DNA of 64,000 bases from Opitutales bacterium (lineage in GTDB: Bacteria > Verrucomicrobiota > Verrucomicrobiia > Opitutales > Opitutaceae): positions 1-64,000 of the forward strand of contig JABITN010000137.1 in the NCBI GenBank assembly GCA_018700525.1. The letters run 5' to 3'. The translations under genes were made by a program, and so were the position numbers. Position 1 is the first letter of the stretch. Each line of letters begins with the position of its first letter. Of the stretch, positions 33,405 to 53,477 are shown in pieces. Under the pieces are notes generated by a model. That model made no database searches. It saw only the letters and a list, made by a program, of their open reading frames with translations, and was not told where the DNA came from.

Positions 33405-34877
33405 ATGAATAATCTATCCAAAATATTTCTGCTTTTTTGCGGTTTAGCGTTTACGGGAATCTCTGTGGCTTCCCAGCCGAACATTATTTTCATCATGGCT
33501 GATGATATGGGTTCGGGCGATGTGCAGGCTTTGAATCCTAGGTCGACGATTCCTACGCCGAATTTGAACCGATTGGCTCACGAAGGTATGACCTTCACCG
33601 ATGCCCACTCGCCGTCTGCTGTTTGTACGCCTACGCGTTACGGTGTTTTGACGGGACGTTATTGTTGGCGCAGCTCAATGGTTCGTGGAGTCCTCAATGG
33701 CTATGGAGCGCCGCTTATCGAAACGGATCGCGAGACAGTCGCTTCAGCTTTGAAGAAAGTGGGCTATGCGACGGGAGTTGTTGGAAAGTGGCACCTGGGA
33801 CTTGGCTTTCAGAAGACGGATGGCGAATGGGATTGGACGAAGACTTTAGATTATTCGCCAATCGATGTAGGCTTCGATCATTCTTTCGTGATTCCGGCAT
33901 CGCTAGATTTTCCTCCATACGTTTACGTCGAGGGACACGAGATTACCGGAGAACCGGATCGGATCCAACCGAAGCAGAGTTTTCCTGCCTTCCTTCGCGA
34001 AGGTGAGCTAGGCTCTGATTTCTCGATCGTCGACTGCTTGGATCGCATGACTGACGAAGCTGCGCGTTACATTCGAAAACAAGCGAAGCGCGATGATCCG
34101 TTCTTTCTCTATTTTCCCCTGAGCGCTCCGCATAAACCCGCTTGGCCGCATTCGCGCTTCGAAGGTCGGAGCGGTCTTGGTCCCTATGGCGATTTCGTGA
34201 TTCAAGTAGATGAGACTGTGGGGCGAATTCTGGATACGATAGATGAAATGGGAATTACTGACGATACGCTGGTTATTTATACGAGCGACAATGGCTCTTA
34301 TATGTACCGTTACGCAGACCCGGATCAAGTCGACCATGTGAAGGATTCTTCGGTTCAAGGGTACTATGAAGGCAATCATACGGCGAATGGCGTTCTACGC
34401 GGTACGAAGGCCGATGTTTGGGAAGCAGGGCATCGCGTGCCTTTTCTTGTGCGATGGCCGGGCAAGGTTGAAGCGGGAAGCTCGAGCGAAAGGACGATTA
34501 CTCACACGGACTTTTTCGCGACAGCAGTTTCGGTTGCCGGCGGCAAGATGCCGGGTGCTGTCGAAGGAGCTCAGGATAGCTTCGATTTCTCTCCGCTGTT
34601 TCTAGGTAAAGAGAAAGCGTTTAAACGGGCTCCTGTTATCCATCATTCAGGCGGAGCGATGTTCGCTATTCGCGAAGGTGATTGGAAACTTGTATTGGGC
34701 AATGGTTCCGGTGGTCGCGAAAAACCGTCTGGCAAGCGTTTCGATCGTCCTTGGCAGCTTTTCAATTTGAAGGAAGATATTGGAGAAAAGACGGACCGTA
34801 TTCGGGAGTTTTCCGAGGTGGCTCTTAAGCTCGAGAAAAAAGCCCTCGAGATTATGAGCAATGGGCGAAGTCGATAG
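33405..34877 (+). CDS. Secreted sulfatase (CTPTR)
   Basis: A 490-residue S1 sulfatase. Signal peptide about 1-23; metal site MADDMGSGD; formylglycine motif CTPTR with Cys74; then TGRYCWRSSMVRGVLNGYG, a loop characteristic of a large marine arylsulfatase group. The KWHLG, YTSDNGS and HTDFFATAVSVAG blocks are intact. It is followed 40 bases later by an SMP-30-type lactonase gene, so the two are probably co-transcribed. Its promoter region coincides with the right end of a family B repeat. Confidence 0.88.
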   Translation: MNNLSKIFLLFCGLAFTGISVASQPNIIFIMADDMGSGDVQALNPRSTIPTPNLNRLAHEGMTFTDAHSPSAVCTPTRYGVLTGRYCWRSSMVRGVLNGYGAPLIETDRETVASALKKVGYATGVVGKWHLGLGFQKTDGEWDWTKTLDYSPIDVGFDHSFVIPASLDFPPYVYVEGHEITGEPDRIQPKQSFPAFLREGELGSDFSIVDCLDRMTDEAARYIRKQAKRDDPFFLYFPLSAPHKPAWPHSRFEGRSGLGPYGDFVIQVDETVGRILDTIDEMGITDDTLVIYTSDNGSYMYRYADPDQVDHVKDSSVQGYYEGNHTANGVLRGTKADVWEAGHRVPFLVRWPGKVEAGSSSERTITHTDFFATAVSVAGGKMPGAVEGAQDSFDFSPLFLGKEKAFKRAPVIHHSGGAMFAIREGDWKLVLGNGSGGREKPSGKRFDRPWQLFNLKEDIGEKTDRIREFSEVALKLEKKALEIMSNGRSR

Positions 34878-39009: not shown

Positions 39010-39885
39010 CTACGCGTTCTTCAAATCGTTGAAGAGCTCGAAGCCTTCTTTTGGCGTGAGGTTGTCGTGGACGACTCCGCTGACTGCTTTGATCATCGCT
39101 AGAGGAGCGTCAGACTGGAAAACGTTACGGCCCATGTCTACGCCGGCTGCGCCGCACTGGATTGCGTTGTAAGCGAGCTCGAGCGCTTCAAGTTCAGGAA
39201 GTTTTTTACCGCCAGCGATTACGACAGGAACGGGCGTTGCAGCTACGACGTTTTCGAAGCCTTCCGTGTAGTAGGTCTTGACGATGCTCGCACCGTTTTC
39301 GGCGCAAACACGAGCGGCTAGACCGAAGTAGCGTGAGTCGCGGGCCATATCCTTACCTACAGCGGTTACTCCCATTACGGGAATGCTGTACTTTTGTCCG
39401 ATGTCAACCAAGCGGCTGATATTGGCGATTGTAATGGCCTCTGTATCGGCGTCTCCAACCGCGATCATTGCAGCCATGCATGATGCGTTCATGCTAATCG
39501 CTTCGGCTTCGGCGATCAGAACGTTGTGGTTCATCTCTGTGAGGATGGTCGTTCCTGTATCCGTGCGAAGACAAATTGGCTTTGTATTCTCAGCGGGGAT
39601 ACAAGAGCGGATCATTCCGCGAGTGCCCATGAGGCAGTCAGCGTGCTCGGCGAGAGGAGCGATGTTAAGATCGATACGCTCGAGTCCCGAAGTCGGTCCC
39701 ATGAGGAAACCGTGATCGAAGGCCAGCATAACGGTACGCCCGGACTTGCGATTGAAAATACGGGACATGCGGTTTTTGACACCCCAGTCTGTGCTATTGA
39801 TTCCTTTAAGGTAAAAGGAACTGGTATCGGCGGGCGTGTTGAGCCCGAAGTTGTCGCCGTCTCTGATATCGTCTAGATCTGCCAT
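39010..39885 (-). CDS. lsrF: LsrF-like class I aldolase/thiolase (DeoC/FbaB family)
   Basis: A 291-residue TIM-barrel Schiff-base enzyme. It resembles Escherichia coli LsrF from the first residues (MADLDDI, MSRIFN, TVMLAFDHGF, GPTSGLERID) to IVKTYY and VVIAGGKK. The catalytic lysine falls at residue 203, the same number as in LsrF. LsrF processes the phosphorylated AI-2 derivative, but no other lsr gene is present. Last gene of a minus-strand operon with SDR, dhaK and dhaL, it may instead cleave a phosphorylated ketose or diketone from sugar catabolism. The family is firm; the substrate is inference. Confidence 0.85.
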   Translation of the reverse strand: MADLDDIRDGDNFGLNTPADTSSFYLKGINSTDWGVKNRMSRIFNRKSGRTVMLAFDHGFLMGPTSGLERIDLNIAPLAEHADCLMGTRGMIRSCIPAENTKPICLRTDTGTTILTEMNHNVLIAEAEAISMNASCMAAMIAVGDADTEAITIANISRLVDIGQKYSIPVMGVTAVGKDMARDSRYFGLAARVCAENGASIVKTYYTEGFENVVAATPVPVVIAGGKKLPELEALELAYNAIQCGAAGVDMGRNVFQSDAPLAMIKAVSGVVHDNLTPKEGFELFNDLKNA

Positions 39886-39937
39886 TTTATGGTGAAGGTT
39901 TTTAGGTTTTATGAATTTAGGTGTTTAGGAAATTACT

Positions 39938-40570
39938 TTAGCCAACGTAGGCGCTAGCGGTTTGGAACATTATGGATACGGAGACTGCTCCGGGATCGGG
40001 GTGACCGATTGATTTTTCGCCGAGCGTTTTGGCTCGTCCCATCGTCGCGATCATCGCTTTGGTGGCTTCCATGCCTGCGGTCGCTCCATCGCTGACGGCT
40101 TTCATCGCGTCGGGTAGCGAAAGGCCTGTGCTGGCTGCGGCGGCTTCTTGTGCTCCTGCGAGCGCGTCGACCATTGTCTTATCGCCTGGTTTGGCTCCGC
40201 CGAGGTTGGTGACTCCTTCCAGCGCGGCGGTCATGAATGTGGAGAGCCCGCTTGCGTCGAGGCTATCGGCATCGCCTAGAGCAGTACCGCCGTTTTGGTA
40301 AAGGATGCCCATGACTGCGCCGGAGGCCCCGCCCATGGTGCCCATGAGGGTCATGCCTGTAGTAGAGAATACTTGGCCGACGGTTGTGGGTTCCAGGGCT
40401 TTAAGTGCCGCTTTCGCCGCTGTGAACCCGCGTTTCATTCCAAGGCCATGGTCGCCATCGCCTAGGCGACGATCGGCTTCGGAGAGCAGTTCTTCGCTTT
40501 CGATGATCTTATCGGAAATGGCGATAAGCATTTCCCGGACTTCGTTGGGGCTTAAGGTTTCTTTGCTCAT
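39938..40570 (-). CDS. dhaL: Dihydroxyacetone kinase-type subunit DhaL (nucleotide-binding)
   Basis: A 210-residue all-helical ATP-binding subunit of a DAK-type kinase. The Mg/phosphate loop GDGDHG is at 37-42, followed by GMKRGF, and FSTTGMTLMGTMGGASG supplies the nucleotide-binding glycine-rich segment. The ATG at 40568-40570 is used; the extension to 40621 runs into a palindromic repeat. It lies downstream of dhaK. No DhaM/PTS component is present, so ATP is the likely donor, as in the DhaK/DhaL-type kinases known for erythrulose or apulose. Confidence 0.9.
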   Translation of the reverse strand: MSKETLSPNEVREMLIAISDKIIESEELLSEADRRLGDGDHGLGMKRGFTAAKAALKALEPTTVGQVFSTTGMTLMGTMGGASGAVMGILYQNGGTALGDADSLDASGLSTFMTAALEGVTNLGGAKPGDKTMVDALAGAQEAAAASTGLSLPDAMKAVSDGATAGMEATKAMIATMGRAKTLGEKSIGHPDPGAVSVSIMFQTASAYVG

Positions 40571-40588
40571 ATAATATAGCTTTTGATT

Positions 40589-40619
40589 GGTAGCGGCCGC
40601 TCGGAGATCGGCCGCTACC
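40589..40619. repeat. Palindromic repeat, family A copy 3 (minimal)
   Basis: A perfect 11-bp stem, GGTAGCGGCCG/CGGCCGCTACC, around CTCGGAGAT. It sits between dhaK and dhaL, just upstream of the dhaL start on the minus strand, so it could affect relative expression of the two subunits. Confidence 0.8.
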
Positions 40620-40635
40620 ATCGGTTAATTGATTC

Positions 40636-41631
40636 TTAAAGTTTCGTGTAGCCGAGGGAGGAGCAAGGTGCGTCCCAGAGCGGTTTAAGCGTGTCGTCGA
40701 CCTTGGTCAGACTGATTGAGAGGCCAGCCATTTCTTGGCAGGTGACGAGCGGACCTAGCATAACGTCGTAAATTTTGATACCCTTGTCTACGAGTAGGGC
40801 TTTGACTTTTTTCAAGACGATGAGGCATTCCATCATTGTGGTGGAGCCTAGGCTGTTGATGAGGACAAGCACGTCGTCACCGGATTCGAGAATGAGGTCG
40901 TCGGCGAGAATTAGGTTGAGCAACTTTTCTGCGAGGTCATCGGCAGGCATCATTTTTTCGATGCCGACACCCTGTTCGCCATGGATGCCCATTCCAATTC
41001 CGATGGAATCATCATCGAGTTCGAAAGTTGGTTTGCCGGTGGCAGGGATTGAGCCAGGCGAGAGGGCTACGCCAACGGAGCGTGTGTTGTCGCGAGCACT
41101 CGTGACGAGACTGACGAGTTCGTCGAGGTCTTTCGCTTTGTCGGCAGCTGCGCCGGCGATCTTGACGATCGGGATAAGGCCAGCGATGCCGCGACGATCT
41201 TCTTTTGTGCTTGGCTGTGCGGAAGCGACGTCGTCCCAGATGAGAACGGTTTCGACTTTGATGCCCTCAGCTGCAGCGAGTTGAGCGGCGATCTTGAAGT
41301 TCATGACATCGCCCGCGTAGTTGCCGTAAAGATACAGGACGCCTTTGCCTTTGTTCACGGCCCTAGTAGCTTCGAGAATTATGTTCGGGGGAGGGGCTGC
41401 GAAGATGTCGCCGCATGCTGCGCCGTCGGCCATGCCTTCGCCGATGAGACCGTGGTAGATCGGTTCATGACCAGTGCCGCCGCCTACGAGGAGGGCTACT
41501 TTGTCGGATGCGATATCGGTGAGAGCGATGGCACCTGGACCGACTTTGGTTACTTTGCCGTTGTAGTAGTCGACGAGGCCGTCGACGAGTTCGGCTGCTG
41601 CGTCATTGGGGTCGTTGAGTATTTTTTTCAT
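40636..41631 (-). CDS. dhaK: Dihydroxyacetone kinase-type subunit DhaK (substrate-binding)
   Basis: A 331-residue substrate subunit of a DAK-type kinase. The GGGTGHEP motif places His55 at the position of E. coli DhaK His56, and GIHGEQG supplies His217, the residue that forms a hemiaminal with the carbonyl substrate. Both are intact, so a ketone substrate is bound covalently and phosphorylated. Length matches the family. It lies between the SDR-aldolase gene (70 bases upstream) and dhaL. The substrate might be dihydroxyacetone or a larger ketose from the island's sugars. Confidence 0.92.
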   Translation of the reverse strand: MKKILNDPNDAAAELVDGLVDYYNGKVTKVGPGAIALTDIASDKVALLVGGGTGHEPIYHGLIGEGMADGAACGDIFAAPPPNIILEATRAVNKGKGVLYLYGNYAGDVMNFKIAAQLAAAEGIKVETVLIWDDVASAQPSTKEDRRGIAGLIPIVKIAGAAADKAKDLDELVSLVTSARDNTRSVGVALSPGSIPATGKPTFELDDDSIGIGMGIHGEQGVGIEKMMPADDLAEKLLNLILADDLILESGDDVLVLINSLGSTTMMECLIVLKKVKALLVDKGIKIYDVMLGPLVTCQEMAGLSISLTKVDDTLKPLWDAPCSSLGYTKL

Positions 41632-41700
41632 ATTTTAAATTGGGGTTGGTCGCGATTGCCGAGGATAGTCGATTTTCGAGAGGGTGTGATCTGTTTAATA

Positions 41701-43533
41701 TTAAATAATTCGATCGTTGCCGCCGTCGACTGGAATCTGAGCGCCGGTGGTTTTTCCGAAGACGTTCGAGGCGAGGGCCACTACGACGTTGCCGACGCTA
41801 CGGGAAGTGATCTCAGTTTTCATGAGATTGCGCTTCTTGTATTGTTCGACGGTGATTCCGTAGCGCTCAGCTGAGCGTTCGAGGGCTTCTTTGGTCCAAA
41901 GTTTGGTGTCGAATACGGCGTCTGGGTGAATGATATTTACTCGAACGCCATCGGGAGCCAATTCCAAGGCCGCGACGCGGCAGAGTTGGGTGAGCCCGGC
42001 TTTCGCGCAGGAATAGCTGGCAGCTCCGGCTCCTGGAGCGTTTACGTTGCGCGAACCCATAAGAATGATCGCGGGATCGATTCCTTTTTTGACGAAAGGG
42101 ATGGCGTGTTTGAGCAGGACTTGGTGACTCGTGAGATTGACTTGGAAGCTGCGGTCCCAATTGCTTTGCTCCAAGTTTTCGAGATAGGCTCCTGCTGTGA
42201 AGATGCCAGCGTTGGAGACGACGATGTCGAGTCCGCCGTAGGTGCGAATGATCTGCTCGATCATGGCTTTAACCTTGGGCTCGTCGGTGAGATTGATAGC
42301 TATTCCGAGAGCGCCGATACCTTCCATTATATCCGTGATCTCTGGATTGATATCCGCTCCGATGACGCAAGCGCCTGCTTCGGCGAGCGTGGTGGCAGTC
42401 GCTAGTCCGATGCCAGCTGCCGAGCCGGAAACGAGAGCGATTTTACCTTGGAGAGTTAGCGGCGGAGTTGAAGCTTTGGGAGACTCCGAAGAGCTCGGAC
42501 TCCAGCTTGCGGCTGGGCCAGCTAGTCGGTTAGCGTGGCTGGCTCTGGAAGCGTTCGCTGCTTGGGTCGCGGTTTCGCTTTTGCTGTTTCCGAAGCTGAA
42601 TAATCCGCGGTTTGGCCAAACTACTTGCCGCAGTTCGATTGCGGCTTCTAGGTTAGAATGGTGGTCGCCTTGAGTTGTTGCGGAGCCTGCTCCGAGGAGC
42701 GTCTTAGCTTGGTCGCTACTGGAAAGGGCGATCGCCTCTGAGGAATCGTCGAGGTGTCCGACTTGAGCTTGCGCTAGTCTGTTGGATACGGCCTGTCGTA
42801 GCTCCGCGAATTCGATTAGCGTCGCCGATTCTGCGTTCGATTCGGAATCCGTTGCGTTGGACTGTGCATCGAGGAAAGCTCGGGCTTGCTCGGTGAGCTG
42901 AAGGGATTTTTGGTAGGATTGCTCGGCTTCGTCGTGGAAGGCAAGTAAACCGACGCCTGCGACGAGGACGCCTTCAATCGACTGTAGCTCGCTGGACTGA
43001 ATGAGCCGAGCGAGCGAACGAGCTTGTTCTGGAATGGTGGCGGCGGCAGGAACTGTGAGGACACGTTGTCCGAAAATCGCCTCGGCAAGCGTTGTGCAGT
43101 TGGTTTGGCGGACTAGGGCGAAAATTGGGGCTGCGCAGGTTTGGTCGATGAATCGCGCTGGAATGGCTGCGTGGAGGAGAGCGTCGATTGGAGCTGTTTG
43201 GCTCAGAGGGCTTGTAGCTGCGAGTTGCAGTTGAGTTGGGCTGTCGGCAGCAGACAGCGAGGCAGCTTCGTTGATTTTTGTAAGGCTTTCCTGTTTGAAT
43301 GATTGAAGATCGCTTGCTTGCGGAGTTTCGTCGAGTCGATCGTTTTCGATGATGGCAAGCTGGGCTTCGGTTTCGCCGAATGGGTTTTGGATATCGGTTT
43401 TAGCGGACCCAATACTGCTCAAGCCGTTTGCAAGTGCTTCGGTTTTCGCGATTAGGCTCGTGGCGTAGACTCTTGTCGAAAGAGGGTCGTTGAGGTGATA
43501 TAGAGCGTCCTCGTTGTTCCACAGGTTTTGCAT
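41701..43533 (-). CDS. RhaD-type bifunctional aldolase/SDR with degenerate aldolase domain
   Basis: A 610-residue protein aligning with bifunctional rhamnulose-1-phosphate aldolase/short-chain dehydrogenases. The C-terminal SDR domain (about 360-610) is intact: SGSAAGIG 369-376, NAG 441-443, Ser494, Tyr507 and Lys511. The N-terminal class II aldolase-like part (1-330) keeps the family's fold landmarks (IDALLHAAIPARFID, EQSYQKSL). But the GGGNTS loop reads SSIGSAK (39-45), the metal-binding HTH reads QTC (131-133), and the NHG motif reads AGVG (192-195). A Ser/Ala-rich linker (about 225-355) joins the halves. The dehydrogenase is probably active; the aldolase probably is not. Confidence 0.82.
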   Translation of the reverse strand: MQNLWNNEDALYHLNDPLSTRVYATSLIAKTEALANGLSSIGSAKTDIQNPFGETEAQLAIIENDRLDETPQASDLQSFKQESLTKINEAASLSAADSPTQLQLAATSPLSQTAPIDALLHAAIPARFIDQTCAAPIFALVRQTNCTTLAEAIFGQRVLTVPAAATIPEQARSLARLIQSSELQSIEGVLVAGVGLLAFHDEAEQSYQKSLQLTEQARAFLDAQSNATDSESNAESATLIEFAELRQAVSNRLAQAQVGHLDDSSEAIALSSSDQAKTLLGAGSATTQGDHHSNLEAAIELRQVVWPNRGLFSFGNSKSETATQAANASRASHANRLAGPAASWSPSSSESPKASTPPLTLQGKIALVSGSAAGIGLATATTLAEAGACVIGADINPEITDIMEGIGALGIAINLTDEPKVKAMIEQIIRTYGGLDIVVSNAGIFTAGAYLENLEQSNWDRSFQVNLTSHQVLLKHAIPFVKKGIDPAIILMGSRNVNAPGAGAASYSCAKAGLTQLCRVAALELAPDGVRVNIIHPDAVFDTKLWTKEALERSAERYGITVEQYKKRNLMKTEITSRSVGNVVVALASNVFGKTTGAQIPVDGGNDRII

Positions 43534-43708: not shown

Positions 43709-44446
43709 TTAAGTGTAGCGTTTACGGTAAGCGGCTGGGGTGGTGTGGAGAACGCGGAGGAAGGATCGAGTGAAATGGCTTTGGTCGTAAAAGCCGCAGT
43801 CCATGGCTATGGCGGAGATCGGCTCGTCGCTTTGGCTCAGGGCGGAGCAAGCTTGTTGAATGCGGTAGCGATTGAGGTATTGGATGGGGGTGAGATGGAA
43901 GCTCTTTTTGAAGTGGCGTTCGAAAGCGCTTAGGGAGAGGCCGCAGACTTTAGCCATGTCGATCAGTTTGATTTCATTGGGGTAATTGGTGGCGATGTGG
44001 TCGATTGCTCGGCTCAGGGCGGAGTGGTGCAGGGCATTGGTATTGCCTTCGAATTTGCGCGTTACGCCTGCTAGTCCGCAGATGTGGCTGTCTTTAGAAT
44101 AGAGCGGAATCTTGTTGGTGATGTGCCATTGGATGAGCCGTTGGGAGGTCGTAATGAGCTCGACCTTGTTTCTTACGACGTAACCTTCTTCGATGACACG
44201 CTTGTCGTCGGCGGCGTAGCTTTGTTCGATATCGTCCGCGAAGAAATCGGTATCGGGGCGTCCGATGATTTCCTCTTTATTTTCGAGCCCCATAAAGTCG
44301 GCGAGCTCTTGGTTGATGTAGATGAAATGGCGGTTGGCGTCCTTGACGAAGAATAGCAAGCCGGGGATGCAGTCAAATAAGAGCTGACCCGTATTGGAGA
44401 TACGGTTTTCTTCGATGAACTGGGATAGCGAATCGTTTGTCGGCAC
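43709..44446 (-). CDS. PAS-AraC family transcriptional regulator
   Basis: A 245-residue regulator with an N-terminal PAS domain (about 18-130; FFVKDANRHFIYINQELADFMG, IIGRPDTDFF) and a C-terminal AraC helix-turn-helix pair (about 145-243; AKVCGLSLSAFERHFKK, AMDCGFYDQSHFTRSF). The start is a GTG at 44444-44446, with a stop codon in frame upstream and no ATG. It sits between kdgK and the SDR-dhaKL-LsrF genes on the same strand and probably controls them in response to a small molecule bound by the PAS domain. Confidence 0.86.
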   Translation of the reverse strand: MPTNDSLSQFIEENRISNTGQLLFDCIPGLLFFVKDANRHFIYINQELADFMGLENKEEIIGRPDTDFFADDIEQSYAADDKRVIEEGYVVRNKVELITTSQRLIQWHITNKIPLYSKDSHICGLAGVTRKFEGNTNALHHSALSRAIDHIATNYPNEIKLIDMAKVCGLSLSAFERHFKKSFHLTPIQYLNRYRIQQACSALSQSDEPISAIAMDCGFYDQSHFTRSFLRVLHTTPAAYRKRYT

Positions 44447-44594: not shown

Positions 44595-45686
44595 TTAGCG
44601 TACGACGCGACCTGAGCCGCCGCTGTTCAAGAGCGCTTCGACTTCGGCGCGGGTTGAGAAATTGAAATCGCCATAGACCGAGTGGGCAAGGCAAGAGGAG
44701 GCGACTGCGAATGAGATCGCGGTCTGTGGCTCTTGCAGGCCGGAGGTGTTGAGGGCGTATATTAGACCGGCTCCAAATGAATCTCCTCCGCCAACGCGAT
44801 CGACGATGTTACGAATTTCGTAAGGTTGGTAGGCGTTGCCCGAGTTGGGAGCGAAATAGCCGTAGTCGGCTTCTTTATCGTAGAGAAGGGCTCCCCAGTT
44901 GTTGTGCGATGCGGAGATGCTTTCGCGCAGGGTAATGGCTACTTTGGATACATTTGGAAATTGCCTAACGATTTCTTGAGCGACGCTGGTATATTTGCTG
45001 GCGTCTATCCGTCCGGAGTGGACGTCGGTGTTTTCGGCTTGGATTCCGAGAACGTCGGAAGCGTCTTCTTCGTTGCCAATGACAAGGTCGACGTAGGGAA
45101 GGATTCGTTGCATCGTTTCGCCTGCTAGGTCGCTTGCGGATAGAGTGGGGTTCCACTTCCAGAGCTTCTTGCGGAAGTTTAGATCGCAAGACACGGTTAG
45201 CCCGGCTGCTTTGGCGTGCTTGACGGATGCGATGGTGGCCTCGGCGGAAATCTCCGAAAGCGCGGGAGTGATTCCAGTGGTGTGGAACCAGGCGGCGTCG
45301 GTGAAAATGGTTTCCCAGTCGTAGGCGTTGGGGGAAGTGAGGCTGACCGATGATTGGTCGCGATCGTAGATTACGCGGCTTGGGCGCTGGTTGGCTCCGG
45401 CTTCGACGAAGTAGAGGCCGAGGCGTCCTTGATCGGTCAATACGATATCGCTGGTCTCTACGTTGAGGCCACGTAGGTTTGAGAGGCAGGCTTGGGTGAT
45501 GTCGTTGTCGGGGATAGCGGTGACGAATCGGGTACTGCCGCCGAGCATTGCGATCGAAGCGGCGACGTTGGCTTCGGCTCCGGCGAAGGTGAGGTTGAGG
45601 TCGCCTGGCAAAGCTTGGCGGAAGCGATTAAAGCCGGGAGGGCAAAGGCGCCCCATAATTTCTCCGAAAGTGACGATTGTGTTCAT
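44595..45686 (-). CDS. kdgK: 2-dehydro-3-deoxygluconokinase (PfkB family)
   Basis: A 363-residue PfkB-type kinase phosphorylating KDG to KDPG in uronate and deoxysugar-acid breakdown. Features are TFGEIMGRLCPPG at the start, FAGAEANVAASIAMLGG, CDLNFRKKLW, and the C-terminal ATP/catalytic motif GGGDSFGAG (299-307) with base Asp302. These match the KdgK branch rather than fructokinase. It starts 29 bases after the eda stop, so the two form the standard lower pathway from unsaturated uronates (alginate, pectin, ulvan) to pyruvate and glyceraldehyde-3-phosphate. Confidence 0.92.
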   Translation of the reverse strand: MNTIVTFGEIMGRLCPPGFNRFRQALPGDLNLTFAGAEANVAASIAMLGGSTRFVTAIPDNDITQACLSNLRGLNVETSDIVLTDQGRLGLYFVEAGANQRPSRVIYDRDQSSVSLTSPNAYDWETIFTDAAWFHTTGITPALSEISAEATIASVKHAKAAGLTVSCDLNFRKKLWKWNPTLSASDLAGETMQRILPYVDLVIGNEEDASDVLGIQAENTDVHSGRIDASKYTSVAQEIVRQFPNVSKVAITLRESISASHNNWGALLYDKEADYGYFAPNSGNAYQPYEIRNIVDRVGGGDSFGAGLIYALNTSGLQEPQTAISFAVASSCLAHSVYGDFNFSTRAEVEALLNSGGSGRVVR

Positions 45687-45715
45687 AGTGGTGTGTTGTT
45701 TTTTTGGTGGGCTGA

Positions 45716-46366
45716 CTATGCTCTAGCTGCGTTTGCGTTTTCGCGGGCTTGGCGTGCGTTAGCTTCGATTTGGTCCCAGTTATGGGCAGCAATTAGGTCG
45801 CGGCTGGCGATCCAGGATCCGCCGATTGCGGAGATAAGGGGAGAGGCGAGGTAGTCGCTCATGTTGTTCGCGTTGAGACCGCCGAGCGGAATGAAATCGA
45901 TGCCGATGTGCTGATAGGGAGCAGCCATGTTTTTGAGGTGCTTCAGCCCGCCAGCGGTTTCGGCCGGGAAGTACTTGAGCGTTCGGCAGCCGAGTTCGAT
46001 GCCTTGCTCGATGTCGCTTGGAGTGACGATGCCAGGGCCAAATGGGAGGCCTTTATCTTTAGCGTGCTCGACGACTCGTCGATTGAGTCCAGGGGCGACG
46101 CCGAAAGCGGCTTTGGCGGCCACGACTTCGTCAACTTGGTCCGTTGTAAGAATGGTGCCGATGCCGGCGAGCATCTCCGGTACTTCGTCGCGAATGGCAC
46201 GAAGGGAATCCAATGCCGCGTCGGTGCGCAGGGTCAACTCCATGGCTCCGATTCCGCCTCGCAGCAGAGCGCGGGCAAGTGGTACGGCATTCGCCGCGTC
46301 GTCAATGACGAGTACAGCGATGATCGCGGATTCTTTGATCTTTTGATGTAGGTCGGCAGGAAACAT
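45716..46366 (-). CDS. eda: KDPG/KHG aldolase
   Basis: A 216-residue class I aldolase splitting KDPG to pyruvate and glyceraldehyde-3-phosphate. The catalytic Glu43 sits in MELTLRT and the Schiff-base Lys131 in LKYFPAE; GIGTI and APGLN are the usual phosphate and pyruvate-pocket loops. It is the first gene of the minus-strand block and is divergent from an IclR regulator, which probably controls it together with kdgK. Confidence 0.93.
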   Translation of the reverse strand: MFPADLHQKIKESAIIAVLVIDDAANAVPLARALLRGGIGAMELTLRTDAALDSLRAIRDEVPEMLAGIGTILTTDQVDEVVAAKAAFGVAPGLNRRVVEHAKDKGLPFGPGIVTPSDIEQGIELGCRTLKYFPAETAGGLKHLKNMAAPYQHIGIDFIPLGGLNANNMSDYLASPLISAIGGSWIASRDLIAAHNWDQIEANARQARENANAARA

Positions 46367-52652: not shown

Positions 52653-53477
52653 ATGTCCGATTTATCTAAACTGTGTATTCATAGCATAACGACGAAGCCT
52701 TGGGGCTTGCGAGAAGCGGTTGGCAAGTATGCGTCGGCAGGTGTTAGCGGAATTTCCGTGTGGCAAGACGCGGTGGCTGCCCAGGGCGAAGGTCATAAGG
52801 CGACCGGCGATATGATTCGGGACGAAGGGGTGGATGTGGCCTGTTACGTTCGAGGGGGATTCTTCACGGCCCTAGGCGGAGCGGATCGGCAAAAAGCGAT
52901 CGATGAGAATAAGCGAATTATCGACGAAGCAGCTGTGCTCGGAGCTCCGTTGGTGGTGCTTGTTTGCGGAGCCACTCCGGGACAATCTTTATTCGAATCG
53001 CGCAAGCAGATTACGGAAGGCATTTCGGCGTCTCTCGAGCATGCGTCGGCTGTCGGTATTAAATTGGGAATCGAACCGCTTCATCCGATGTATGCGGATA
53101 GTCGCAGCGCGGTAAATACGATGACTCAGGCGAACGCTATTTGCGATGAAATCGGTCATGCGAATCTTGGAATAACGGTGGATGTTTTCCACACCTGGTG
53201 GGATGATCGACTCGAAGCCGAGATAAAGATAGCCGGTCAGAAGAATCGGATTTTCTCCTTCCACATATGCGACTGGAAGAACTTGCCTGAGGACATGCTC
53301 AATGATCGCGGTTTGATGGGCGAGGGAGTGATCGACGTTTCGGGGATTCGTAAATGGGTTCGCGAAGCAGGGTTTTCCGGATACGAAGAAGTTGAAATTT
53401 TTTCCAATAGATATTGGGCGATGGATCAAGACGAATACCTCGCCAAAATCAAGGAAGCGTACTTCGAGATAAAGTAA
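52653..53477 (+). CDS. Sugar phosphate isomerase/epimerase family TIM barrel
   Basis: A 274-residue xylose-isomerase-like TIM barrel (AP_endonuc_2 family). Conserved metal-site segments include GIEPLHPMYADSRSAV, GITVDVFHTWWDD, SFHICDWK and EVEIFS. No signal peptide. A GAGAGGAG ribosome site precedes its ATG. Within the GH88 operon it may isomerise or epimerise the released sugar acid, but family members are too diverse to name a reaction. Confidence 0.85.
   Translation: MSDLSKLCIHSITTKPWGLREAVGKYASAGVSGISVWQDAVAAQGEGHKATGDMIRDEGVDVACYVRGGFFTALGGADRQKAIDENKRIIDEAAVLGAPLVVLVCGATPGQSLFESRKQITEGISASLEHASAVGIKLGIEPLHPMYADSRSAVNTMTQANAICDEIGHANLGITVDVFHTWWDDRLEAEIKIAGQKNRIFSFHICDWKNLPEDMLNDRGLMGEGVIDVSGIRKWVREAGFSGYEEVEIFSNRYWAMDQDEYLAKIKEAYFEIK

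Follow-up and report, generated by a model that had tools for sequence, protein, structure and literature searches.

An operon of four genes in the window, the 64,000-nucleotide stretch of DNA analysed here (contig JABITN010000137.1, assembly GCA_018700525.1, from an Opitutales bacterium of the Opitutaceae), may serve to break down a ketose that derives from a sugar and is not dihydroxyacetone. On the minus strand, between positions 39010 and 43533, four open reading frames (ORFs) encode an LsrF-family protein, the kinase subunits DhaL and DhaK (together DhaKL), and a short-chain dehydrogenase/reductase (SDR) fused to a class II aldolase-like domain, with gaps of 52 (LsrF/DhaL), 14 (DhaL/DhaK) and 69 (DhaK/fusion) bases between them. 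The ketose, perhaps released from a sulfated glycan, would be oxidised by the SDR, phosphorylated by DhaKL and split thiolytically by LsrF. This interpretation is tentative, with a probability of roughly two in five. An earlier interpretation (the sequence-only reading) had described the four consecutive minus-strand genes and their small gaps just as they were found, and had suggested that a ketose or diketone made by the SDR is phosphorylated by DhaKL and cleaved by the LsrF-like enzyme in place of a decayed metal aldolase; taken as a whole, it is partly supported.

In the first step of the proposed route, the SDR would oxidise the C4 hydroxyl of the open-chain ketose to give a 2,4-diketone, HOCH2-CO-CH(OH)-CO-R. 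The C2 ketone of this compound would then be held on His217 of DhaK while DhaL used ATP to phosphorylate the C1 hydroxyl, and finally Lys203 of LsrF would form a Schiff base and the C3-C4 bond would be split with coenzyme A (CoA), yielding dihydroxyacetone phosphate (DHAP) and R-CO-CoA. The acyl product would be lactoyl-CoA from a 6-deoxyhexulose and acetyl-CoA from a 5-deoxypentulose. DhaK chemistry requires a ketone beside a CH2OH group, and the LsrF substrate has the same layout, which favours the route.

Conservation of the gene set

The gene set is a real unit and not a chance arrangement. At a threshold of E 1e-60, LsrF was found in 14 of 132 genomes sampled from the order and in 52 of 387 sampled from the phylum, the window genome being in both samples. 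All matches in the samples at this threshold or better, with the window's own excluded, gave 63 loci, and in 40 of them DhaK lies within about seven genes of LsrF. A scan of named genomes supplied the best 80 of at least 588 matching stretches (587 confirmed), of which 79 were annotated, L113 being omitted. Loci were counted as distinct if their LsrF sequences were not identical over the last 250 residues, which reduced 142 loci to 132, and in 74 of these DhaK or DhaL is encoded on the same strand no more than 3 kb from LsrF. The pairing of LsrF with DhaKL occurs in nine named phyla: Verrucomicrobiota, Lentisphaerota, Kiritimatiellota, Planctomycetota, Bacteroidota, Bacillota, Spirochaetota, Acidobacteriota and Pseudomonadota. 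For each of the last four there is a single record, and as three of these records are metagenome-assembled, a contig may have been assigned to the wrong bin.

The neighbourhood that the sequence-only reading thought worth seeking in other Verrucomicrobiota does occur in them. The order AraC-PAS regulator, fusion, DhaK, DhaL and LsrF is the same in the three same-genus genomes listed (L058, L059 and L060) and in L108, and L109 has the set from the fusion onwards, as far as its short contig reaches; L108 and L109 are both Opitutaceae records. The regulator gene belongs to this conserved unit, and its product is 80–85% identical, in the same place, in L058, L059, L060 and L108. A near-identical set is carried by Lentisphaera marina and its family (L062, L063, L064 and L066), where the motifs of the aldolase half are kept.

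LsrF

The LsrF protein of the window passes the NCBI equivalog cut-off as a full-length member (Table 1), matches the PDB structure 3gkf at E 3.7e-101, and is 55.7% identical to LsrF of E. coli over 287 residues. Across 134 sequences, including those of the window and of E. coli, the residues Asp57, His58, Lys203, Gly225, Gly226, Gly252 and Arg253 are invariant. In the parts of the E. coli structural study drawn on here (PMC2728841), the phosphate is held by His58, Arg254 and glycines 226, 227 and 253, while Lys203 is catalytic and Asp57 the likely acid/base. As the phosphate-contacting residues are kept without exception, a kinase step ahead of LsrF is to be expected, and the substrate is probably phosphorylated; the enzyme thus looks competent on such a substrate, as the sequence-only reading had proposed, and its Lys203 is present as described there.

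Positions 60 and 109 hold Phe and Asp in the window but Tyr and Ser in E. coli, and among the 134 sequences the pairing is complete (F/D 71, Y/S 62, Y/T 1). This coupling was considered as a sign of function and dropped, because on the tree it needs no more than three changes, and p is 0.5 in the pair test. Five LsrF sequences from another family, f8 (L016 to L020), are 88–96% identical to that of the window, which suggests transfer of lsrF between families.

The fusion protein and a possible plain aldol route

The 610-residue fusion protein appears to have one working half. Its SDR domain keeps Ser494, Tyr507 and Lys511, which are invariant in all 13 aligned rows, and shows 56–59% identity to the SDR domain of the intact fusions that Lentisphaera marina and members of its family carry (L062, L063, L064, L066 and L105). 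The class II aldolase domain falls below the Pfam threshold (19.9 against 22.2 bits) and, in the window as in L058, L059, L060, L108 and L109, lacks the HxH pair, the histidine of the second HG and the GGGN motif; the fusion also scores below the cut-offs of TIGR02632/PRK08324-type families. Between the window and its relatives, nonsynonymous change affects 0.43–0.47 of sites in the aldolase half and 0.077–0.092 in the SDR half, a roughly fivefold difference in which only the contrast between the halves is meaningful, because synonymous sites are near saturation in most comparisons. In L061 and L065 the SDR stands alone, the aldolase half being gone. The loss of motifs, the contrast in nonsynonymous change and the SDR-only relatives together point to the SDR as the working part and to the aldolase half as, by all appearances, a dead remnant; the decay of the metal aldolase had been recognised correctly in the sequence-only reading. 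When the whole fusion was put through a fold search, each of the 50 matches listed was to an SDR-type dehydrogenase, so that the search is silent on the aldolase half; a predicted structure model folds that half with fair confidence.

It had also been proposed that LsrF replaced the decayed aldolase, and here the comparison does not support so simple a picture. The HxH pair is kept in 15 other fusions within six genes of LsrF (14 distinct, L118 and L066 being one record), the criterion being a pattern test (L179 lacks GGGN and L187 the second HG pattern). Ten of the 14 are on the LsrF strand, and they come from Lentisphaera, Paracoccus, Shinella, Desulfobacterales and others. Since LsrF stands near intact-looking aldolases in several phyla, it is not merely a substitute for them; the window genome, too, encodes further class II aldolases that carry an HxH pair (C118, C267 and C173). 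It is possible that the aldolase became redundant and was lost after LsrF had been gained.

An alternative almost as probable as the thiolytic route is a plain aldol split. DhaKL would phosphorylate the ketose at C1, LsrF would act as an ordinary class I aldolase, giving DHAP and an aldehyde without CoA, and the SDR would oxidise or reduce the aldehyde, as the parent aldolase fusions may do, LsrF having taken over from the dead aldolase half. Lys203 and Asp57, as described in the available portions of PMC2728841, suit an aldolase mechanism, and the SDR derives from a family of aldolase–SDR fusions. Moreover, the degenerate aldolase half is confined to the window's group (6 of 20 distinct fusions in the vicinity of LsrF, that of the window included), and this, with the SDR standing alone in two relatives, is the path expected of a takeover. 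Set against this are the 14 distinct loci, in several phyla, where an HxH-keeping aldolase lies near LsrF, and the one characterised enzyme: in the sections consulted of PMC6410053 and PMC8016206, E. coli LsrF is a CoA-dependent thiolase, which passes an acetyl group on to CoA and sets DHAP free.

The kinase and dihydroxyacetone

DhaL passes its equivalog cut-off and carries the GDGDHG motif from residue 54, as do all 76 DhaL proteins near LsrF; its true start is probably the second methionine, residue 18, where the DhaL of L059 begins. DhaK has a histidine that binds the substrate covalently and an aspartate that acts as base, and the DhaL motif binds the Mg-nucleotide. His55 and His217 are kept in 84 of 85 aligned DhaK sequences (the other has a gap) and Asp108 in all 85; the two histidines and the GDGDHG motif, listed as intact by the sequence-only reading, are indeed so. 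The window DhaK nevertheless scores below its equivalog model TIGR02363 (337.7 against 406.25 bits), and its best model, the broader 'dihydroxyacetone kinase family', is likewise under its cut-off.

A further difference concerns position 103, which is glycine in the window; its E. coli counterpart is Lys104, and lysine is found in all seven reference dihydroxyacetone kinases, six of them encoded beside DhaM, phosphotransferase system (PTS) or glycerol-dehydrogenase genes and one a fused DAK of Pantoea with no such neighbours in view. The Lactococcus DhaK structure 3ct4 also has the lysine. This criterion is a feature proposed here from seven chosen references and not a published definition. 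Among 83 DhaKs near LsrF, a set with a few copies identical in the C-terminal 250 residues of LsrF, the local motif is LNH in 69, GNY in seven and NNY in six, with a gap in one, and lysine occurs in none of the 82. Seven DhaKs chosen from other contexts, annotated as dihydroxyacetone kinases, all read YGNY and so share the glycine of the window. We take Lys104 of E. coli DhaK to contact dihydroxyacetone, although a look-up that included passages of PMC4661931 gave no confirmation of this. The missing lysine hints at a substrate other than dihydroxyacetone, in line with the ketose or diketone of the sequence-only reading, and is a hint rather than proof because the YGNY DhaKs of other contexts have unestablished substrates. 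On the DhaK tree the three types require at least one change, with long branches meeting at that point, and independent recruitment of the three, which was considered, is not forced by the tree. One DhaK without the lysine lies on a Citrobacter amalonaticus plasmid (L217:8169-10823), together with a DAK2 protein, HPr and a class II aldolase.

The genome, which is estimated to be 96% complete, has a single Dak1 gene, and no DhaM or EIIA-man protein was found in it. This makes DhaM an unlikely phosphate donor and ATP a likely one. The absence of DhaM had been read correctly from the window; the accompanying statement that there is no PTS gene holds for the neighbourhood but not for the genome, where HPr is present.

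Salvage of dihydroxyacetone, in which LsrF or another enzyme would free this compound and DhaKL would convert it to DHAP, is improbable. The catalytic residues of DhaKL are intact and its Dak1 gene is the only one found in the genome, as such a role would have it, but the lysine common to the reference kinases is absent, the phosphate pocket of LsrF is kept throughout, and no glycerol dehydrogenase or other glycerol gene was seen among the neighbouring genes scanned.

Candidate substrates and genome context

L-Rhamnose was considered as a substrate of the operon through L100, where LsrF and an SDR lie in an apparent L-rhamnose operon with a rhamnose isomerase, a FucA-like aldolase and a rhamnulokinase-like gene (L100:3482-10770); at L107:8177-12069, LsrF and an SDR accompany genes of L100's aldolase and kinase clusters, with no isomerase seen. 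The candidate was rejected for the window as unlikely in view of a separate rhamnose operon on another contig of its genome, containing a rhamnose isomerase, a 741-residue aldolase–SDR fusion with its HxH pair and an adjoining rhamnulokinase-like gene (38% identical to E. coli RhaB), and rhamnulose, one of the ketoses named in the sequence-only reading, is unlikely. The isomerase is of the Pseudomonas type (E 4e-86 to 2hcv); an E. coli-type RhaA was not found in the genome, and as the other type is present, the absence of RhaA alone would mislead.

For L-fucose there are only hints: two weak matches to the fucose-isomerase C-domain in the genome (44 and 29 bits), and one GH95 gene near the operon of L062. 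Sulfatases around the operon, with this GH95 gene, point loosely to sulfated, possibly fucose-bearing glycans. In the window, sulfatase-like genes form a run over 14149-37425, along with genes for a 3-keto-disaccharide hydrolase and an SMP-30 protein and with a lactonase nearby, which suggests the breakdown of a sulfated glycan. A sulfatase 74–78% identical to the one listed in Table 1 lies near the operon in L058, L059, L060 and L108. Two xylose-isomerase-like TIM-barrel genes precede the regulator in the same four genomes, with one small ORF between in L059 and L108; neither the window nor six further stretches of the window genome yielded a close copy of either gene, and the TIM barrel at window 52902-53384 is 25% identical. 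A PfkB kinase and a 2-keto-3-deoxy-6-phosphogluconate (KDPG) aldolase are encoded by separate adjoining genes at window 44595-46366 and match the two ends of the fusion model NF041633.

The quorum signal autoinducer 2 (AI-2) was considered too, and LuxS, a VOC homologue and a cupin were all unfound in the genome, LuxS in a search with controls and the other two in searches without a positive control. Disposal of AI-2 (DPD), with DhaKL in the role of LsrK and another enzyme in that of LsrG, is very improbable: it would suit the membership of LsrF in its family by the NCBI cut-off, and a VOC protein beside DhaKL-LsrF in other genomes is a possible stand-in for LsrG, but the LuxS and VOC results speak against it, as does Phe60/Asp109 in place of the E. 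coli Tyr/Ser. Moreover, among the genes scanned beside the operon there is no LsrK, LsrG, LsrR or Lsr transporter, just as had been claimed, and the ribose-type ABC transporter some 34 kb from the operon has a binding protein 27% like LsrB.

Table 1. Features of the operon and of associated genes in the window (cut-offs in bits are given where they apply)
Feature	Position	Strand	Evidence
LsrF-family class I aldolase/thiolase, 291 aa	39010..39885	-	NF006081, 427.6 bits (cut-off 297); catalytic Lys203
DhaL, nucleotide-binding kinase subunit, 227 aa	39938..40621	-	TIGR02365, 177.9 bits (cut-off 138.3); GDGDHG
DhaK, ketone-binding kinase subunit, 331 aa	40636..41631	-	Dak1, 361.5 bits; His55/His217/Asp108
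Fusion protein, 610 aa	41701..43533	-	SDR half and apparently degenerate class II aldolase half
SDR dehydrogenase domain of fusion, residues 358-610	41701..42462	-	adh_short_C2, 147.5 bits
Degenerate class II aldolase domain of fusion, residues 1-357	42463..43533	-	NF006197, residues 1-286, 118 bits
PAS-AraC regulator, directly upstream of fusion gene	43709..44446	-	PAS_4 and HTH_18
Sulfatase, associated, outside operon	33405..34877	+	PF00884

Other gene sets around LsrF

LsrF is the constant element across the loci compared; the kinase that accompanies it and the step that precedes it differ from set to set. A cupin, a VOC protein or both accompany LsrF in 42 of 134 rows, all 42 of them with DhaKL, and these sets occur in Bacteroidota, Kiritimatiellota, Lentisphaerota, Planctomycetota and a lineage of the window's order (L021 to L027). 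The cupin belongs to the D-lyxose/D-mannose isomerase family (profile E 2.4e-21 to 7nzo) and is apparently secreted, judging its N-terminus by eye. The VOC protein, found at 20 loci, has about 105 residues and a metal-type His, Glu, His, Glu set that is invariant in seven of seven aligned sequences. It is undercounted in the 63 sample loci, as is LsrG, because ORFs under 110–120 aa were uncalled there; in the 79 annotated loci, LsrG stands beside LsrF in two. L161, L130, L149, L205 and others, from Bacteroidota and elsewhere, are examples of a cupin and/or VOC protein with DhaK-DhaL-LsrF, and many such sets have cytochrome-related genes and a large SUMF1-like protein close by, as annotated in the Parabacteroides distasonis plasmid L205, where the VOC gene is annotated as a hypothetical protein. 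An SDR is found near LsrF in 42 of 134 rows. Elsewhere LsrF occurs with an SDR, a UPF0261 (Tm-1-like) protein and an epimerase-like protein, or with FGGY-type kinases; at L061, L112, L114, L115 and L116, UPF0261, LsrF, a ribulose-phosphate-epimerase-like protein and an SDR are present with no DhaKL in view, and UPF0261 may be another kinase stand-in. LsrG, the small VOC protein or the SDR could each make a beta-dicarbonyl for LsrF.

It could be speculated, though it is doubtful, that there is a widespread, hitherto undescribed retro-Claisen ketose route, in which a 2,4-diketose, formed from the sugar by oxidation or isomerisation, is phosphorylated at C1 by a DhaK not specific for dihydroxyacetone and is split by LsrF into DHAP and an acyl-CoA, so that AI-2 breakdown would be one specialised branch of an older pathway reaching from Verrucomicrobiota to gut Bacteroidota. 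For the ketose route in the window itself, the frequency with which DhaK or DhaL stands beside LsrF, with three DhaK types that differ at the lysine position, is supporting evidence.

Several observations weigh against that route. In 30 of the 134 rows there is no DhaKL, FGGY, UPF0261, SDR, cupin or VOC label, some of these being on short contigs, and the SDR label itself includes generic SDRs below about 35% identity. No DhaKL was found near the f8 LsrF genes in the stretch read (the L016 contig is 4.4 kb), and no match was found in the sample for other genera of the window's family, at least 20 such genomes being among those listed. In L100, LsrF is beside a FucA-like aldolase and so could be serving a side reaction there. 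The lysine test uses references of our own choosing, and glycine DhaKs elsewhere are annotated as dihydroxyacetone kinases. In the fusion family, the aldehyde product may instead be what the SDR domain works on, and the substrate, the use of CoA and the order of the steps are all things that we infer. The least probable alternative, that the genes are neighbours with separate roles and no common pathway, would agree with the variable gene order and with LsrF occurring also without DhaKL (its presence changes 17 times on the LsrF tree), but not with the repeated pairing in nine named phyla or the conserved order in the window's group.

Relation to known systems

No published description of a DhaKL-LsrF gene set was found in the open-licence subset of PMC, which most subscription journals lie outside, in line with the sequence-only reading, which knew of no described pathway with these genes. 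The annotated records that were examined label LsrF as the AI-2 (quorum-signal) thiolase and DhaK as dihydroxyacetone kinase. If the general ketose module is real, these names are misleading in many genomes, those of gut Parabacteroides included, it is a mistake to infer AI-2 processing from the presence of LsrF by itself, and metabolic models lack a sugar route.

The lsr operon of E. coli and its relatives is alike in having an LsrF with the same catalytic and phosphate-binding residues and in placing a kinase before cleavage to DHAP. The window differs in having DhaKL for the FGGY kinase LsrK and an SDR for LsrG, in its Phe60/Asp109 and in the lack of an adjoining LsrR or Lsr transporter and, as far as was found, of LuxS in the genome. 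The DhaK-DhaL(-DhaM) kinases share the two subunits and their catalytic residues with the window, which differs in that no DhaM was found, in its glycine for lysine, in a DhaK below the equivalog cut-off and in the lack of glycerol genes among the neighbours scanned. DhaKs of other contexts, such as that of Pasteurella multocida with PdxA and RpiB and those of Rhizobium, Paracoccus, Sinorhizobium and Citrobacter plasmids, are 36–47% identical to the window DhaK and are those that read YGNY, but no LsrF is annotated in the flanks shown. The rhamnulose-1-phosphate aldolase/SDR fusions (TIGR02632, PRK08324) have the same domain order and the SDR Ser-Tyr-Lys residues, and the window differs from them in its apparently dead aldolase half, its scores below their cut-offs and a rhamnose operon that lies elsewhere. 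Finally, 5-deoxyribose salvage, or the DHAP shunt, uses a class II aldolase and other kinases. In the portions of the literature on it that were available (PMC6079011, PMC10986504, PMC12632272), neither DhaKL nor LsrF is mentioned, and the likeness to the route proposed here lies in its logic, phosphorylation followed by cleavage of the phosphorylated deoxypentose, which yields DHAP.

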